Positions 23,924-54,257 of a stretch of 64,000 nt of DNA are shown piece after piece. Within the stretch, counting starts at the first letter, position 1. Each line of letters starts with the position of its first letter. The stretch lies in NCBI RefSeq assembly GCF_963675165.1, contig NC_087386.1, forward strand, positions 152,001 to 216,000. The letters run 5' to 3'. The stretch is from Halichondria panicea (Eukaryota > Porifera > Demospongiae > Suberitida > Halichondriidae). Under the pieces are notes generated by a model. That model searched no databases. It was not told where the DNA came from and was given only the letters and a program-made list of their open reading frames with translations. The position numbers and the translations under genes are program-made.

Positions 23924-25792
23924 CGTGTGTGTGTGTGTGTAGACAGCTAGTGAACATTCCATGCATACCCATCTTTACTTGAGGAATCACCACCAACTAA
24001 TCTCTTTGCATTTACTGGGAAAGCATGTGTTTGTTGTGATTCAATTACCATTCCCAACAGTCTGTAGTCATTCCTAGTCAACTAAGCATGAGTTGTTACA
24101 GCTATCCAAACAGCCACTTAGCTAGTCGTGCACATTACCCCCTGACCACGCGTGCACACTACCCCCTGACCAATACCTGTGAGGGGAGACGATGTGCTGA
24201 GTGTCTCTACACTGGGCAATGCTAGGAGGTTGAGTACTCGGAATGCTTCAGTCCATTCCTCTCTCTCTACCATAGTGGCACAGCTGAATGTAATGACAGG
24301 GTCCTCCCCCAGAACAAGCTGTGTGGGGGTACAACATAAAGGTAATGTAATGACAGGGTCCTCCCCCAGAACAAGCTGTGTGGGGGGTACAACATGACAG
24401 GGTCCTCCCCCAGAACAAGCTGTGTGGGGGGTACAACATGGATCGAGGGGGGGTTTACACAGTCACACACTATTGTGACCTAAGCCAGTGTTTGATGTCC
24501 CCCACCACTTGCCTTATTAGGAGCAGCCATACCAATGCTAACAAACCTGGCTAAGTGTAAGTCAAGTGGCTACATGTGACAGCTAATCATATCCTCTTTG
24601 TTTGTACATATCACTAACTTGGCTAACACAAATGGAATCTCAATAATCCATGCAGCAAATGGGCCAGAAAGAGCTCATCAAAAGACTGACCATTTCTCAC
24701 ATTTCTCCCCTCCATACCAGTGCTAACGAGCATGTAGTCACACCTGTGCCAGTGTACATACTCAACCCAGCTAATAACTATATTCATGACTTGGTAATCA
24801 CCCCCAGTTACTCACAAACACCTGGTGTACGCTAACACCACATGACTTACCTCGAAGGCATATTTTGTTCTAGAGGGTTTGTCCTGCACACTCCATACGT
24901 CAGTCAGTCGAATAACCTCGAGGCTGCTTTTAGAGCCATCAGAATCAAGCAGCTCCACAGCCTTGCACTTGTGATGGAGGCTATTGCTGAGCAGCACGTA
25001 TTTTGGTTTATACCCCTGCAGGAAGAGTGTACATAGACTGTCACAACCATTAAAGATAAGAGTACCGTGTATAGTTATACAGCCAGTACAAGCAGTATGC
25101 AGGAGTAGGTCAACTACACTGTGGGAAATGAAATACAATACATGTGCATACGGAAACAGCCACCAGTGGACCGGTAATGACTGGAAATAGCAGCAATAGA
25201 ATAAAGGCCACCATCTGGATACTAGTAATGTGATTATACAGTACATACACTTAACATTCCTAGCATGTCATGGCAGCCTCCAGGGTCTCAAGCTAGAGGG
25301 CCATGTACTATACCCAAGCATGTCATGGCAGCCTCCAGGGTCTCAAGCTAGAGGGCCATGTACTTACTATACCCAAGCATGTCATGGCAGCCTCCAGGGT
25401 CTCAAGCTAGAGGGCCATGTACTATACCCAAGCATGTCATGGCAGCCTCCAGGGTCTCAAGCTAGAGGGCCATGTACTATACCCAAGCATGTCATGGCAG
25501 CCTCCAGGGTCTCAAGCTAGAGGGCCATGTACTATACCCAAGCATGTCATGGCAGCCTCCAGGGTCTCAAGCTAGAGGGCCATGTACTATACCCAAGCAT
25601 GTCATGGCAGCCTCCAGGGTCTCAAGCTAGAGGGCCATGTACTATACCCAAGCATGTCATGGCAGCCTATAAATTTATTATACAGGGCAATACTTATACT
25701 GTTAGGTCACATCCTGTGGTGAACTGCAAACAATAGCCTAAACAGCTACCATTGATATTGCCCCCCCCCCACATACACACACTAGTCTCCCT

Positions 25793-27339: not shown

Positions 27340-30300
27340 ATGTCCATCTACAGCTCTAAACGCAAGAGCAGGAGAGCCTCCAGGTCTCAGCTAGGTGAGG
27401 TGTCCTTGTGTACTGTACAGCTAGAGCTATTAGCCAGCCTCCTGACCACCTGCCACCATGCATTGTGCCCATTGTTCAGTGGCATGGATGAATGTGTGTG
27501 TCCTGTGTTTAGTGTAGCGTATAATTATGGCATATGTAGCGTCTGTCCCAGCTAGCCGGCCTATAGCTAGTCTTGTTCTAGTATCAGTATGTATGTATGC
27601 TGTGATTGTGGAGGTACCACACTGTGTTGTTGTGCAGGTCATCTGAAGCTGTCTGTGTACGAGGACTCTAGTGCACTCATAGTACATGGTAAGCACACCC
27701 CCGGCCCATGCACACACTAGTCCACTCACAGTGCATGGTAAGCACACCCCCGGCCCATGCACACACTAGTCCACTCACAGTGCATGGTAAGCACACCCCC
27801 GGCCCATGCACACACTAGTCCACTCACAGTGCATGGTAAGCACACCCCCGGCCCATGCACACACTAGTCCACTCACAGTGCATGGTAAGCACACCCCCGG
27901 CCCATGCACACACTAGTCCACTCACAGTACATGGTAAGCACACCCCCGGCCCATGCACACACTCACAGTGCATGGTAAGCACACCCCCGGCCCATACACA
28001 CACTCACAGTGCATGGTAAGCACACCCCCGGCCCATACACACACTCACAGTGCATGGTAAGCACACCCCCGGCCCATACACACACTCACAGTGCATGGTA
28101 AGCACACCCCCGGCCCATGCACACACTAGTCCACTCACAGTGCATGGTAAGCACACCCCCGGCCCATGCACACACTAGTCCACTCACAGTACATGGTAAG
28201 CACACCCCCGGCCCATACACACACTAGTCCACTCACAGTGCATGGTAAGCACACCCCCGGCCCATACACACACTCACAGTGCATGGTAAGCACACCCCCG
28301 GCCCATACACACACTCACAGTGCATGGTAAGCACACCCCCGGCCCATACACACACTCACAGTGCATGGTAAGCACACCCCCGGCCCATGCACACACTAGT
28401 CCACTCACAGTGCATGGTAAGCACACCCCCGGCCCATGCACACACTAGTCCACTCACAGTGCATGGTAAGCACACCCCCGGCCCATGCACACACTAGTCC
28501 ACTCACAGTACATGGTAAGCACACCCCCGGCCCATGCACACACTAGTCCACTCACAGTGCATGGTAAGCACACCCCCGGCCCATGCACACACTAGTCCAC
28601 TCACAGTGCATGGTAAGCACACCCCCGGCCCATGCACACACTAGTCCACTCACAGTGCATGGTAAGCACACCCCCGGCCCATACACACACTCACAGTGCA
28701 TGGTAAGCACACCCCCGGCCCATACACACACTCACAGTACATGGTAAGCACACCCCCGGCCCATACACACACTATTCATGGCTACCCCCAGCAAAGGAGC
28801 TGTGATGAATTCCATTGCCTCTATTAATTTGTATAGTATATGAAGCACGAGGACTTCAGAGGAGAGAGACTTCTCCATTGGATACATATGTCAAGGTAAC
28901 CTCACACTGTCACACAATCCACACACACACACACACACCCACACACACCACACAGCTGTACTTGCTACCTGACCCATCCAAGCTGACTAAAGAGAAGACT
29001 AGAATAGTCAAACAAAAGGATCCAGTGTTCAATGAAAAGTTCTCCTTGTAAGTTAGTATCATATAGCCACTTTTGCTCTTGATGCTCTCACCTCTGTCAG
29101 CATTCTCACTGGGAATGAAGACATTGACAAGAAGCTCTTGATATCAGTATGGAGTCATCACACTGCATCAAGGTAGGTACCGTCGCCATGGGCTACCTGC
29201 CTGTGTGTGTGTGTGTGTGTGTGCGTGTGAGTTATCTAGTATATTGCTTACAGGAACGAGATGATTGGATGTATGACATTCAAGGTTGCTGAAATCCTTG
29301 GCCCAGATAAGGTAATAATATAATACGCCCATGCTCTGTCTAATAATGTCTCCCCTGTGTATAGAGTCTGAATGGATGGTACCAGCTCCTGGACGAGGTC
29401 AAAGGTCAAGAGTCGTACCATCAGGTGCCCCTCACCATATCCCGGTCCGAGGGAACAAGAGGTGACCCTTGCAAGAGGACCTTTGCAGTCACGCTGGTCC
29501 GCAGTGAGAGAGGGTATGGCTTCAGTGTGGATGGTCACAGTCCTGTGTTCATATCACAGGTTCTCAAAGGTAAGTGTGTGTGGTCTAGATATAGGGTCAA
29601 AAGTTACTACAGGTTACCCGGCTGCCCTGGCGGACATAAAAGTGGGGGACACACTAATAGAGGCGGAGGGTACGGACGTGACCAAGGCCAGTGCTAACCT
29701 GGTAGTCACCATATTCAAGTGAGTCCTGTAATGATATACTTGACTGGTACAGTGGATTGCAGTGCACTTGCAACAGAGAATTGCCTAACAGCAAAACCAC
29801 AATAATATTTTATTACATGTAGATAATATTAGCCTAAAACCCTAAACCTGTATCTATCAGAAACCGGGCGACGCCCAACTTACCCTTTTTGGTAGATTAT
29901 GTTCTGTCTTTTTTACTCTTCTCAGATACGAGATTTTTAGTTTTGGCCCTGATACTGATAGTCATGTCTTACAATCTAAATTGTGGTTTTGCTGTCTCTG
30001 TTGCAAGTGCACTGCAATCCACTGTACATATATAATCATTGTAGCCCGTTATTTTGATTCTTATTGTCTAAATTTTTGCATTTTCATATTAGCGCGTTTT
30101 TATTAAAACGGCACACTATAGTATTGGTTCAACGTCACCATTTTGTACGAATGTACGAATAATTATATATTTAGAAACTTGTTACGTAGTTCATACATGA
30201 TTGTATGAAAATGTGCACCAACAACAATTACCCGGCCCGCTATGTATAGAGTATTTATTCCACTCGTTATTTGCTGCCTCCCTACACAGGAAATGTCCCC

Positions 30301-35484: not shown

Positions 35485-38400
35485 TTACTCGAGAGTTTTG
35501 GTGAATTCTACTGCAGTGCTAAACTGTGCCCACCAGTAAGCGCTCTCCCCACTGAGACTGGCTTCACTGAAGTTCTTGACATATTGTACAGTGGACAGTA
35601 GACCTGGAGGGTTGGCCTTGAGCAGCACATACACAATGACAGGGAACATGTCATCAGCGCCAGGAGGGTCTCCACACTTGGCCAGCTGGAGTAGGCTGAT
35701 GAGCACCTTGCAACATGTGACCACACACTCAACCTTCCCACGGGGACTCTGCAACAGTGGACATGACATGAAATGACACACACACACACGGGAATAACAC
35801 GAGAATAGTGCATGAGTTTAACAGGAAATTGTTGGCAAGGAATGCTCCAGTACCTTAGTTAGTTAGCCTCCCGCTGATGGGACAGGAAACATGACACATG
35901 GTGACATGAAATGACATGCTAATTATAATTAACCTTTGTACTCACGACATGACATAATTAAAGGAGAATGACACATATTGTCATGTCAGGCATTAGGGCT
36001 CTCTTATTATGCCTCGGTGCGCATGCGCAAGCGAGGTATACGGTAGTGTGTTTGTGCGTCTGTGTGTCTGTGTGTGTGTGTGTCTGTGTGTGTAGACTGT
36101 TTCAGCTGCTCAATAAAGTGCAAGTAAGAGTTTCTATAGGCTTCTAGTCATGCTTTCTTGGCTTGGTATTTGTGGATTTGCAAAATAAAGCTTCGTTCTC
36201 GAGTTATGCCTAGTTTTGCTTACTTGGAATGCCATTGCAGCCTTTTCAGAAGAGTCCGTAGCAAAACTTGTTCACCGAGTGTTGCTACTCTACTTAGTAG
36301 TTAGCTCTGCACTAGAACGCTAGCTATTGATAGCTGCAAGAGTGAGAAGAGAGCTGCAAGGCTCTGCTGACTTGATTGCAGCCATTAGACTTGAATTTTT
36401 GGCGTCGATCGTTATTAACAACAATCATCGTCGATCATTACCCACTCTTTGAGTTTCCCTGTGATTCTGGATTCTGCATGCAGCAAAATTCATCATGATA
36501 ATTATATAATCAATGTGTGTATAAAAGCTAGCTAGTTATGTAGCTTTGGCACCTCCACCGAGGCATCAGCACCCGCGGTGCTTTCATTATAATATTGTCA
36601 GGCATTAGGGCTCTCTTATTGTCAGGCATTAGGGCTCTCTTATTATAACGTAGGTACATGAGTGAATGAACTCTTTCTACCTAAAAACAACAACAACATT
36701 CAACTTTCCCTGAGGACTCTGCAACATAGCATGAGCAACATAGCATGACATGTGCCACCAGAGGACTGTAGCATGACATGTGCCACCAGAGGACTGTAGC
36801 ATGACATGTGCCACCAGAGGACTGTAGCATGACATGTGCCACCAGAGGACTGTACTATACACATGATAACACACTATAGTTATAGTGCTACCAGTGGTGG
36901 CAGTGCACTTCAATGGAGTTTAGCAATTATCACATAGTCACCAGCCTCACGCTGATGGCAGGAATATGACATAACAAGCCTCACGCTGATGGCAGGAATA
37001 TGACATAACAAGCCTCACGCTGATGGCAGGAATATGACATAACAAGCCTCACGCTGATGGCAGGAATATGACATAACAAGCCTCACGCTGATGGCAGGAA
37101 TATGACATAACAAGCCTCACGCTGATGGCAGGAATATGACATAACAAGCCTCACGCTGATGGCAGGAATATGACATAACAAGCCTCACGCTGATGGCAGG
37201 AATATGACATAACAAGCCTCACGCTGATGGCAGGAATATGACATAACAAGCCTCACGCTGATGGCAGGAATATGACATAACAAGCCTCACGCTGATGGCA
37301 GGAATATGACATAACCAGCCTCACGCTGATGGCAGGAATATGACATAACAAGCCTCACGCTGATGGCAGGAATATGACATAACAAGCCTCACGCTGATGG
37401 CAGGAATATGACTAACACTAATGGCATGGAATAACATGACATGACATGAGACAAAACATGTGTAGGAATTAGGTATCAAACAATGTTGGGAATAAATACG
37501 TAGGCATGCACTTGAAGAATAGTTATAATCAAAATCCTTATGTAATGAGAACATGTATTGCAACGAAATTGTCAATTAAATGTCTGGATAAGATGGTAGT
37601 TGATAATAAATAGGCAAGTTAATTCTGTTTTTAATAGGTGGACACTTGAATAAATGAACAGTCTTATTTGGTACGGCACTAATCAGGTGACCTCATACTG
37701 ACCTTGTATGTACTCATGACCTTTAGGTGCGTCTGAGCGGAATTCCATGGACAGCTGCTATGATAGACCTGTGTTGCTATGGTAATACACAAACGAGTTA
37801 CATAGCAACAGGACGTACCATTGGTATTTGCAGACTCTTGTGAGTGATTGAGATTGCCTCCGATAATCTGGTCAAGTGCTGAGAGAAGATCCTGTGAGGT
37901 CATAAATTATAACATCACATAATTTCCGCAAATTAAATTATTAATCTGAATAGTACAATCTTTCAATGGTTCTTCAGCTGCCATAACTTGAATTCCGTTG
38001 ATCCAATTTCACCGATTTTATGATTTTCTGAAAGCTTAGAAAGAGACCTTTCAAATGGTATCATCAAAGTTCGTATTTGAGCGATACAATTATTTGTCAA
38101 TTTGGCCACACCATGAATTATAATAGCCCATGGTCCAAGGCCGAAAAATGACAAATTATGGCCCTAACGAAATTTTGGATTTTTAACACATCATTTGAAA
38201 GGTCTCTGTCTAAGCTTTCAGAAAAAATCATATTTTTTTTTACATTGGATCAACGGTACTCAAGTTATGGCTGTTGAAAGATGTTCAAGTTCAAGTAGTG
38301 CGACTTACTGGTCTCTCATTGTGTCCGAGTCTCCGTTTGGATGGAACACATGCTCATAGAGGTGAGAAAATAAGTGATCGTCCAATCGGTTCATCACGTC

Positions 38401-48614: not shown

Positions 48615-50448
48615 TCAGTTAGGTCCTAGCCCTTCATTGACATAATACTCAGTCAGGTCATCAGGCGGACAAGCCACCTCGTATAGTTGTTGATTATGAA
48701 TAGATTCATACAGTGGATCCTCCAGGACTGTCACTGAGGGGGGGTGGGCTCCATAGGACACGTTGGGGCTTGTGGAGATATCTTTATCCAGGACTGTCAC
48801 TGAGGGGGGGTGGGCTCCATAGGACACGTTGGGGCTTGTGGAGATATCTTTATCGGCTTGAGTGATCTTGAAACGCCGTCGTACCAGGAGTATGATTGTG
48901 CAAGTTATGAGCAGCGAGAGTAGTAGGACCACTGCCAACACTGGGAGCAGAATGAGTAAGATATCTGGTGATGCGGTGGTAGGGTTGATGTTGTCTGGTG
49001 AAGTTGTAGGATCGCTGTCTGGTGAATCTGTGTGGGTGGATAGTAGATCACACAGTGTCGTGTATATACACATAATTATACACCCTCATAAGATTACCAA
49101 GCACCCTCTATGAAAATACACCCTCATAAGATTACCAAGCACCTATGAAAATGCACCCTCATAAGATCACCTTTTATGAAAATATACGTACCGTACAACT
49201 GGACAATTTGGTGGGGTGTTTTAATTTGGCGATTTACCAAAGATAAAACAAGAGCCTTCATTCGTGGGTAAAATATTCGTGGTCTGAGTTCCAACCACAA
49301 AAATGTTGTCCCCCGGAAAAAAACCAGCTATACGGTAATAATTATAATATACCTGCCAAAATTTCCAGTTATATGGTATCTGTGTCACATGTGTACAGGA
49401 TACACCACCCAATACCTGTGTTGATGGAGTTGGAGTTGATGGAGATCTGTTGTGATGTGATAGAGCTCCCAGAGAGTCTACAAGTGTACAGTCCATTATC
49501 CTGGGCTGTCAGTGGCTCTATCCTCAACACAGATACTCGAGAGGTGGTCCCTGAGAAACCTGATTGGAAGCTGATGTCTACTCTATCACTGCTCAATACC
49601 TGGGTGTCAGCTTTGTACCAACCTAACTGTTCCTCGGGTCGAAGGTAGCCACTCATCCCACAAGTCATCTCAGCAAAACCATTACTCACTTCAAACCCAG
49701 TTTCCAAGCCAGTACTAAGAGAGGCTGTGGAGAGAAACAGTTCATTGTTTAAAAAGCGGAGGCCTTTCAGATGATAATCATGTAAATCAATGGAGCCCAT
49801 GGTATTTTCCCGAAAATGAGTTATGGCCTGTACCAAATTTGAGATTTGAGCATTCTACTATCTGAACAGGCTGCTTCTAAGTGAATTTGGACTATACTAG
49901 TGAACCTACTCAACAGCTCCAGTTGGGCTTCTTCCTGCAGTGTCGTGCTGAGTGCCTGCTCCACAATACAGTCATAGCGTCCCTCATCTAGATAAGACAG
50001 TCCAGTTATTTTAAGGGTCAGTTGAGTGACATTGTTAGTTATTCTGCTCTGAATGGTGTAGAGTCTGTTGGTGTCAGTGGGAGAGGTCACTATCAGGCCA
50101 GAGGGAGTACGCCACTCTACTGTAAAGTTATGAGAGGTCACCAGTGTACACTCTAAGATAGCCCATGATGGTGGAGGTAGGAAGGTACGGGAAGGGAGAG
50201 TCACTGAGGAACACGAGAGCTCAGAACCAACTGTGGAGTGGGAGTAAAGTTGCAGTATAATGGAAAGTCCTCATTTATATAAACTATAATTACACCAGCT
50301 CTACCTAATTACACATTTACAGAAGTCTTAACTCACAGCAAGTATGTCCTATGAGTAAGAAAGTAAGGAGAGCAACTGTTGACTGGGTCTTTGCACACAT
50401 AGCTGCATGGAGTAGCTTCAAGTTGACTATATGAACTGCAGGGGCCAT
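48615..50448 (-). CDS. Two-Ig-domain receptor A
   Basis: Exons from the start: 50337-50448, 49906-50230, 49416-49724 and 48615-49027. A signal segment (TVALLTFLLIGHTCC) leads to Ig domain 1 (WAILECTLVTSHNFTVEWRT to DEGRYDCIVEQ) and Ig domain 2 (FAEMTCGMSGYLRPEEQLGW to NGLYTCRLSGSS). A short stalk and the membrane helix (LLILLPVLAVVLLLSLLITC) follow. The cytoplasmic tail has two tandem 22-residue repeats, each with DISTSPNVSYGAHPPSVTVL. It ends with tyrosine motifs PLYESI, QLYEV and EYYVNEG. The tail tyrosines suggest SH2 binding. Ligand and partners are unknown. This is the sister of receptor B at 51778-54257. Confidence 0.78.
49745..49900. mobile_element. MITE-1 fragment between the Ig exons of receptor A
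   Basis: Shows GGAGGCCTTTCAGATGATAA, CCCATGGTATTTTCCCGAAA ATGAGTTATGGCC and ATCTGAACAGGCTGCTTCTA A. At the same place in receptor B lie a longer MITE-1 copy and a second fragment. Confidence 0.6.
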
Positions 50449-51777: not shown

Positions 51778-54257
51778 TTAGTTAGGTCCTAGCCCTTCAT
51801 TGACATAATACCCATAAGGCAGGTCATCAGGCGGACAGCCACCTCGTATATATAGATGCCTGCTTGAGATAGACTCATACAGTTGATTCTCCAGGACTGT
51901 CACTGATGGGGGGTGGGCTCCATAGGACACGTTGGGGCTTGTGGAGATATCTTTATCCAGGACTGTCACTGAGGGGGGGTGGGCTCCATAGGACACGTTG
52001 GGGCTTGTGGAGATATCTTTATCCAGGACTGTCACTGAGGGGGGGTGGGCTCCATAGGACACGTTGGGGCTTGTGGAGATATCTTTATCCAGGATTGTCA
52101 CTGATGGGGGGTGGGCTCCATAGGACACGTTGGGGACATCATTATCGGCTTGAGTGATCTTGAAACGCCGTCGTACCAGGAGTATGATTGTGCAAGTTAT
52201 GAGCAGCGAGAGTAGTAGGACCACTGCCAACACTGGGAGCAGAATGATGTTGTCTGGTGAAGTTGTAGGACAGATATCTGGTGAATCTGTGTGGGTAGAT
52301 AGTAGATCACACAGTGTCGTGTATATACACATGTATACCGACAATTTGGTGGGGTGTTTTAATTTGGCGATTTACCAAATTTAAAACAAACTGCCAAATT
52401 AAGTTAGTTTCCTGTGGACAACGTCATTGCCATATATATATATATATAGTAAGACGTCAAATTAAGTCAGTTCAAATGTCTCATTCGCTAATACCGTATA
52501 TAGCCAGTAATTTCGGGGACAAAACATTCGTGGTTGAGCCTTCACTCGTGAGTAAAATATTCGTGGTCTGAGCTCCAACCATGAACATTTTGTCCCCCGG
52601 AAAAAACCAGCTATATACTACCCCAACCAGCTACTACCTGCCAAGATGTCCGGTTACATGTATACAGTATCTGTGTCACATGTGTACAGGATACACCACA
52701 CACATACCTCCTGTGTTGGAGTTGATGGTGTTGATAGAGTTGGAGTTGATGGTGTTGATGGAGTTGGAGTTGGAGTTGATGGTGTTGATGGAGTTGGAGT
52801 TGATAGAGTTGGAGTTGATGGAGTTGGAGTTGATACAGTTGGAATTGATGGTGTTGATGGAGTTGGAGTTGATAGAGTTGGAGTTGACGGTGTTGATGGA
52901 GTTGGAGTTGGTGGAGATCTGTTGTGATGTCTTGGTGTTGATAGAGTTCGTGTTGATGGAGATCTGTTGTGATGTGATAGAGCTCCCAGAGAGTCTACAA
53001 GTGTACAGTCCAATATCCTGGGCTGTCAGTGGCTCTATCCTCAACACAGATACTGGAGAGGTGGTCCCTGAGAAACCTGATTGGAAGCTGATGTCTACTC
53101 TATCACTGCTCAATACCTGGGTGTCAGCTTTGTACCAGCCTAACTGTTCCTCAGGTCGAAGGTAGCCACTCATCCCACAAGTCATCTCAGCAAAACGATT
53201 ACTCACTTCCAACCCAGTTTCCAAGCCAGTACTAAGAGAGGCTGTGGAGAGAAACAGTTCATTGTAATAGAAGCATTTTTGAACGGCCTTTAGTTTCCAA
53301 TAAGATTAATTTTATGATTTTCTGAAAGCTTAGAGAGAGCTAGGCCTTTCAGATTATGTGTTAAAATCAAAGGTCTATTCTAGGCCTGTTTTTCAAAATA
53401 CCATGGGCCCACCCATGGGCCCACGGTTATATTTTTGAAAATGGGAAATTACGACCCATTCCAAATTTGAGATTTGAGCATAAATATACCATCTGCTTCT
53501 ATAAGCTTTCAGAAAATCAGAAAATCCTACCATCAGAACTCTATTATAGTTACAGAGCCAACTCTAGTACTAATAATGAATTAAGTATAGAGCATCTTTT
53601 TACGGCCTTAACCTTAGTTCTGTTGGTCATGTCCCGTTCTAAATCTGAGATTTGAGCATTCTACCATCTAAACAGGCTCCTTCTAGAAAAAGTTAAATAT
53701 GGACTACCAGAACCTACTCAACAGCTCCAGTTGGGCTTCTCCCTGCAGTGTCGTGCTGAGTGCCTGCTCCACAATACAGTCATAGCGTCCCTCATCTAGA
53801 TAAGACAGTCCAGTTATTTTGAGGGTCAGTTGAGTGACATTGTTAGTTATTCTGCTCTGAATGGTGTAGAGTCTGTTGGTATCAGTGGGAGAGGTCACTA
53901 TCAGGCCAGAGGGAGTACGCCACTCTACTGTAAAGTTATGAGAGGTCACCAGTGTACACTCTAAGATAGCCCATGATGGTGGAGGTAGGAAGGTACGGGA
54001 AGGGAGAGTCACTGAGGAACACGAGAGCTCTGAACCAACTGTGGAGTGGGAGTAAAGTTGCAGCATAATGGAAAGTCCGAACTTGTACCAGCTTTACCTA
54101 TAATTACACATTACGGAATTCTTAACTCACAGCAAGCATGTCCTATGAGTAGGAGCAAGAGAGCAACTGTTGACTGGGTCTTTGCACACATAGCTGCATG
54201 GAGTAGTAGCTTTGAGAGATCAAGAGAATGCTTGACTATATGAACTGCAGAGGCCAT
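51778..54257 (-). CDS. Two-Ig-domain receptor B (paralogue of A)
   Basis: Exons from the start: 54131-54257, 53714-54038, 52708-53241 and 51778-52286. The signal segment STVALLLLLIGHACC, the two Ig domains (DEGRYDCIVEQ and IGLYTCRLSGSS) and the helix LLPVLAVVLLLSLLITCTII are nearly identical to receptor A. Differences are concentrated in repeats. The stalk after Ig 2 is expanded to about 70 residues of (SNSINTIN)-type repeats. The cytoplasmic tail has four SPNVSYGAHPPSVT units (the outermost slightly shortened) instead of two. The tail ends QLYESISSRHLY and GYYVNEGLGPN. Frames are open throughout, so it looks functional. Confidence 0.78.
51893..52135 (-). repeat. Coding repeat of 66 bp, four copies, in receptor B tail
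   Basis: Each unit encodes a variant of DKDISTSPNVSYGAHPPSVT VL. Receptor A has two copies at 48715-48855. DNA identity between units is very high. Confidence 0.92.
52715..52960 (-). repeat. Coding repeat (GAGTTGGAGTTGATGGTGTTGATG-type), receptor B stalk
   Basis: 6-bp and 12-bp registers of GTTGGA, GTTGAT and GGTGTT repeat for about 200 bp and encode an Asn/Ser/Ile/Thr stalk. The corresponding piece in receptor A is only about 8 residues (INSNSINT). Confidence 0.88.
53258..53712. mobile_element. Two MITE-1 copies in the intron between Ig exons of receptor B
   Basis: A nearly full copy at 53258-53560 (ATTTTCTGAAAGCTTAGAGA to AGCTTTCAGAAAATCAGAAA) is followed by a truncated one at 53588-53712 (GAGCATCTTTTTACGGCCTT to CAGGCTCCTTCTAG). 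Confidence 0.65.

Follow-up and report, generated by a model that had tools for sequence, protein, structure and literature searches.

Introns normally present the spliceosome with one 5′ splice site at the end of the exon. What, then, is an intron that repeats this site about two dozen times, and which of the copies is used? The question arises in a 64,000-nucleotide window of the Halichondria panicea assembly (C10:152001-216000), which lies 152-216 kb from the end of a contig of 6,998,024 bases. Here we describe the array, the gene that carries it, the consequences of using each donor and similar arrays elsewhere in the genome. Positions are those of the window unless a contig is named, and a slash within a motif marks a splice junction.

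The intron repeats its own exon-intron boundary

The features of the locus are as follows.
27638-27688, forward strand: upstream exon, encoding HLKLSVYEDSSALIVH and ending one base into the following codon; flanked by acceptor TTGTGCAG and donor G/GTAAGC; yields a C2 domain when joined downstream
27668-27688, forward strand: exon copy of the repeated boundary, CTAGTGCACTCATAGTACATG, read from the sequence
27668-28774, forward strand: array as delimited by TRF (period 49, 24.1 copies, score 1647)
27689-28836, forward strand: intron, most of it array, with the first donor at its start and TAG/TATATG at its end, placed by a gapless C2-domain alignment over the junction and by a frame check
27689-28743, forward strand: tandem run of 23 complete units, 14 of them 49 bp and nine 41 bp long; a donor opens every unit, and CTCACAG plus TGCATG or TACATG closes it
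27718-27720, forward strand: in-frame TAG in unit 1, from the frame check
28744-28774, forward strand: partial last unit with the 24th donor (28744), diverging afterwards (TATTCATGGCTACCCCC)
28837-28897, forward strand: downstream exon (VYEARGLQRRETSPLDTYVK, first codon split), from the frame check and C2-domain homology
28898-28955, forward strand: next intron of the gene, 58 nt

The score of the array was the highest in the TRF table for the 64-kb window. An earlier note had described an intron built from about 24 tandem copies of its own 5′ splice site, and this count held: GGTAAGCACACCC was present in 24 exact copies, starting with that at the exon end (27688) and finishing with that at 28743, and 24 identical donors GTAAGCACACCCCCGG lay between 27689 and 28744 (24/24 the same). 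The unit lengths given there, 37 and 47 bp, were wrong. Measured between the donors, 14 of the 23 intervals were 49 bp and nine were 41 bp. The units had also been said to carry the last ~18 bases of the exon. The exon end is indeed copied, but the copied part extends over ~21 bases, 18 of which are identical (three mismatches between CTAGTGCACTCATAGTACATG and the common 49-bp unit, CTAGTCCACTCACAGTGCATG). At the other side of the unit, CTCACAG directly preceded the final hexamer in 23/23 units and provides 23 AG sites, in agreement with the proposal of an acceptor-like AG in each unit. The hexamer itself was TGCATG in 19/23 units and TACATG in 4/23, so that a 6-nt TGCATG pseudo-exon is found in most units and not, as had been claimed, in every one.

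Variation among the complete units was confined to three sites: G or A in CCCAT[G/A]CAC, an 8-bp indel, and GT[G/A]CATG (19 G, 4 A). Their combinations give six unit variants. The inner units were thus near-uniform, while both edges of the array, the exon copy and the last unit, had diverged, as judged by sequence comparison. A search with 133 bases of the array against its own 131.5-Mb assembly, by a method that ignores very common words, returned the target as the single matching place.

Tandem arrays are hard to assemble, the assembly represents one haplotype, and one amphioxus globin mirage is reported to have been misassembled in a draft (PMC3087553, PMC3902484). The unit number, or the whole array, could on these grounds be an assembly artefact. 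However, the six unit variants are arranged in a regular order that is not random, and other genes carry independent arrays of this type (see below). We therefore give an artefact next to no chance.

The first donor would restore a C2 domain

Exons 27638-27688 and 28837-28897, joined to each other and to further exons, encode a C2 domain (Pfam PF00168, E = 3.9e-19). The joined exons also matched the C2 domain of RGS3 (E = 1.7e-18), with no gap at the 27688/28837 junction; PDZ and PH signals further downstream in this gene were under the Pfam cut-off. Because joining the first donor to 28837 yields a gapless RGS3-like C2 domain, the exon-intron boundary at 27688 is real. The reading frame, for its part, points to the first donor as the one probably used.

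A different use of the repeats is suggested by the hexamers, which have AG before and GTAAG after them in 23/23 units. Inclusion of TGCATG, and likewise of TACATG, would keep the frame and add Val-His, and the array could accordingly be read as a chain of 6-nt in-frame micro-exons that writes Val-His repeats into the C2 domain. Such splicing would require intra-unit introns of 43 or 35 nt, whereas the intron that follows in this gene measures 58 nt, and the array acceptors lack the T-rich tract that is present before 28837. In addition, the RGS3 alignment requires no insertion at the junction. These three points make micro-exons unlikely, and the match in frame is not independent evidence for them, since Val-His is a by-product of copying the exon end. 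We regard micro-exons as extremely unlikely.

All distal donors in the target gene meet the same stop codon

The earlier note had proposed that use of distal donors would add repeat sequence containing TAG in the longer units. The frame check bore this out in a stronger form: the products of all 23 distal donors, as well as full intron retention, run into the same TAG at 27718-27720.

This shared premature stop is what one would expect of a regulated switch, in which a reserve of donors competes for U1 and distal use, by leading to TAG, lowers or tunes expression. A human precedent points in the same direction: in ABCA7 the second donor is reported to be used, and splicing to depend on how long the array is (PMC5954066). 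By contrast, distal donors leave the frame open in 6/13 and 9/9 cases in two other arrays (see below), which argues that the stop is not a shared design, and predicted accessibility does not single out the first donor. The probability of being unpaired over positions -3 to +6 was 0.0015 for the first donor and ranged from 0.0005 to 0.0195 for the others. We consider a switch unlikely. The specific roles put forward earlier (U1 buffering, tuning of the splicing rate and non-productive transcripts) find no support beyond the motif itself, and neutral capture explains the array.

With regard to RNA structure, a candidate hairpin between GTGCATGG and CCATGCAC within the unit, which could have hidden the decoy donors (the exon copy has one mismatch), was rejected, the first donor being no more accessible than the rest. 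No unusual RNA structure was predicted over 961 nt of the array (z = +0.99; 17 of 20 shuffles were at least as stable).

The hexamer is common in this genome

UGCAUG is an RBFOX site; to our knowledge, TACATG is not known as one. The 19 UGCAUG copies could conceivably form an RBFOX-binding intronic enhancer that fixes the use of the first donor. Their density is high (19 in a 1.15-kb intron; the sampled sequence has 0.875 per kb and strand) and the genome contains an RBFOX-like gene (best exon E = 5.3e-14, with 76% identity in the adjacent exon). However, with the target array masked, TGCATG ranked 9 and TACATG ranked 12 of 4096 hexamers in 294 kb, TGCATG also occurred in the units of three other arrays (32 arrays sampled), and the copies in the intron stem from the copying of one unit. 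An enhancer of this kind is very unlikely. Across the same 294 kb (the G000 sample), TGCATG and TACATG were found at 3.6 and 3.5 times the uniform rate.

Minisatellites are dense in the window

To place the array among other repeats, we used a sample of 264 kb, consisting of the window and 20 stretches of 10 kb, and recorded arrays with a period of at least 20 and at least 2.8 copies. There were 32: 20 in the 64-kb window, three in the 10 kb at C10:300 kb and nine in the remaining 190 kb. The window is thus very rich in minisatellites, with 20 arrays per 64 kb versus 12 in the other 200 kb sampled. When the 32 units were scanned for GGTAAG, AGGTGAG and GTAAGT on either strand, these words were present in the target unit only.

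Other repeats of the window deserve mention. A 34-bp unit is repeated 14 times at 36943-37417 with 99% matches, and this array is probably very young. On the reverse strand, 48618-49085 and 51781-52371 hold related open frames with a membrane-span-like stretch followed by 66-bp tandem repeats (2.0 and 3.7 copies, respectively, by TRF) that code for DKDISTSPNVSYGAHPPSVTVL-like segments.

A repeated 3′ boundary was found in the neighbouring gene.
24287-24440, reverse strand: acceptor CACACAG plus the first ~30 exon bases, three in tandem, after which the exon runs into a PH-like domain
The joined exons of this gene matched Pfam PH with E = 9.3e-6 (26.6 bits versus a cut-off of 25.1). Both kinds of boundary, 5′ and 3′, are thus affected in the window, as stated for amphioxus.

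Genome-wide counts were made of three words spaced 20-50 bases apart; they refer to overlapping triples, not to arrays. GGTAAG gave 285 triples versus 268 for its backwards control, AGGTGAG 235 versus 137 for its backwards control, and GGATAG 354 versus 89 for the control. By these counts, arrays of GGTAAG do not clearly differ in frequency from those of control words, and AGGTGAG is above its control. The GGTAAG matches listed (to C7) comprise 28 loci, and 18 of these lie within 1 Mb of a contig end versus 21% expected. Among the control matches listed, 7/16 loci do so versus 19% expected. Since the control loci are likewise enriched near contig ends, clustering there is not special to donors.

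Donor arrays start at exon ends in other genes

We examined the 5′ flanks of 10 of the 28 listed GGTAAG loci, a non-random choice that favoured clear units (for two loci, similarity to the target was part of the reason), and the 3′ flanks of six. The 10 further donor arrays divided into four clear cases, in which the array starts at an exon end and is followed by a homologous next exon, two probable cases, and four without evidence. The clear and probable cases are:
C2:112478, PPT2-like, clear: 10 donors, one every 33 bp; the upstream exons match PPT2 (E = 3.3e-19), and Pfam gives E = 2.5e-26 once the exon downstream of the array is joined to them
C5:30418, CD36/LIMP2-like, clear: 14 donors; joined exons match Pfam (E = 1.4e-23)
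C2:6789783, purple-acid-phosphatase-like (PAP), clear: 13 donors; joined exons have a gap-free PDB match (E = 2.8e-19)
C7:173417, reverse strand, NEDD4/WWP1-like HECT, clear: 8 donors; joined exons have a gap-free PDB match (E = 6.6e-24)
C6:865854, reverse strand, probable: units repeat 20 of the last 21 exon bases; frame open over the junction
C3:8458007, GMP-synthase-like, probable: flanks homologous by eye on both sides and by Pfam upstream; exon limits imprecise

The units of the PAP-like array, like those of the target, repeat the last bases of the exon; the joined PAP-like exons had no match in Pfam, and the family was recognised in PDB. For the gene at C6:865854 there was no family match in Pfam, and its first exon had none in PDB. 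At the four loci without evidence (L039, L040, L046, L047) no exon was recognised ahead of the array donors; at L046 the script took an isolated upstream donor, and the array itself was judged by eye. In the CD36-like gene (L050 with L045 and L052; C5:29860-31700) the real acceptor, TCCTGCAG, closes the final unit, with CAG in the place of the GGGG of the inner copies, indicating that the repeat unit is close to a whole short intron.

The effect of distal donors on the frame varied from gene to gene. The frame remained open for 0/23 distal donors in the C2-domain target gene, 0/12 in the PAP-like, 0/7 in the HECT and 0/5 in the C6 gene, as against 6/13 in the CD36-like and 9/9 in the PPT2-like gene. 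These differing outcomes argue against a shared selected role. In the PPT2-like gene (L042, L051, L048; C2:111980-113300) the 33-bp unit is in frame and stop-free, and each unit would add 11 residues at any of the nine distal donors.

We also attempted to estimate the share of GGTAAG words that are true donors. The 60 nt immediately upstream were coding-like in 17% of 109 cases versus 7% downstream, and control words gave 14-19% upstream, so that this estimate was discarded as unreliable. The short-exon coding score is too weak to decide, since the true C2-domain exon is equalled or outscored by 32% of random windows.

Extrapolating from four clear and two probable cases in 10 examined, the genome might hold dozens of introns with a minisatellite-multiplied 5′ splice site of their own. 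The spliceosome would then reliably pick the first of up to 24 donors, or some genes, such as the PPT2-like one, would use several for protein length variants. We put this forward tentatively, as a rather doubtful proposition. If true, the capture of splice sites by minisatellites would continually supply this animal with variation in splicing.

Probable capture of the boundary by a minisatellite

We propose, with a probability of about 0.8, that the target intron is a mirage of the type described in amphioxus: a minisatellite that captured an exon-intron boundary, in which the first donor is useful and the remaining ones are decoys that the gene tolerates. Direct observations are the array itself, the real boundary, the consequences for the frame and the recurrence in other genes. 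The units span the boundary (~21 exon bases plus the donor), the splice signals lie within the repeats (24 donors, 23 AG sites), and homogenised inner units are flanked by diverged edge units. From the authentic boundary and the repeat anatomy, the array would be classed as a mirage.

Its origin may be pictured as follows. A segment of ~49 bp, with ~21 bases from the end of the exon and ~28 from the start of the intron, would have been duplicated head to tail and then expanded, most likely via slippage or unequal exchange, in a part of the contig that is close to its end and rich in minisatellites. Because the copies lie downstream of the original boundary, the first donor would still link the intact exon with the acceptor at 28836/28837, while the remaining 23 stay within the intron as decoys. 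An arrangement with the copies inside the intron and the first donor joined to an intact exon implies that boundary arrays can be tolerated. Nearly all transcripts would use the first donor, and the array is probably close to neutral, at most leaking some TAG-ended transcripts. Such leakage to distal donors is plausible, since it is reported for ABCA7.

Neutral capture of the boundary by a minisatellite is sufficient to explain the target array, and all cases can be accounted for by a single process, in which minisatellites arise often, with a higher density near contig ends, and an exon-intron boundary falls within some of them. Against this reading, AGGTGAG triples exceed their backwards control, so that donor-bearing arrays may be somewhat in excess, and the ABCA7 case shows that splicing can change with an array of this sort.

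The 24 identical donors, which differ solely in position, amount to a natural experiment on how the spliceosome chooses a 5′ splice site. With independent arrays that differ in unit length and frame outcome, the roles of position, exon definition and the flanking exon become testable.

Comparison with known systems

This kind of repeat is already known but rarely described, and the target adds a further case. Our literature search, which covered a minority of subscription journals, found no report of such arrays in sponges. By its title, one paper reportedly deals with repeated donors that are supplied by a minisatellite, as in the target, and that are used there. Boundary minisatellites, which we found described mainly from amphioxus and human, are here extended to several genes of another animal genome.

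In human segmental duplications, internal tandem repeats with ~30-bp units and a mean of four copies are reported at exon-intron boundaries of recent paralogs, where they were examined for their part in creating new introns and alternative splicing (PMC2812944). As in the target, a minisatellite expands at an exon-intron boundary and changes gene structure.

The intron 18 VNTR of human ABCA7 has 23.7 copies of a 25-bp unit in the reference, is polymorphic and is linked to disease; splicing at its second donor shifts the reading frame, and splicing was measured to vary with the length of the array (PMC5954066). In both genes the first GT of the array is the donor of the exon and the donor is repeated in each unit (24/24 in the target). 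The ABCA7 unit begins at the donor, and the exon end is not described as belonging to it, whereas the target unit includes the exon end.

The target also resembles the amphioxus mirages of Adh3, the globins, troponin C and PGBD5. Two reports describe minisatellite-like tandem duplications of exon-intron boundaries that are spliced regularly and are unstable in length, that affect 5′ and 3′ boundaries, and whose edge units escape homogenisation (PMC3087553, PMC3902484). They come from another animal, and the globin mirages described there have at most six units of ~150 bp, whereas the target has 24 donors. In both animals, however, the splice signals lie within the repeats, and the Adh3 units, at 10-72 bp, span the 41 and 49 bp of the target.
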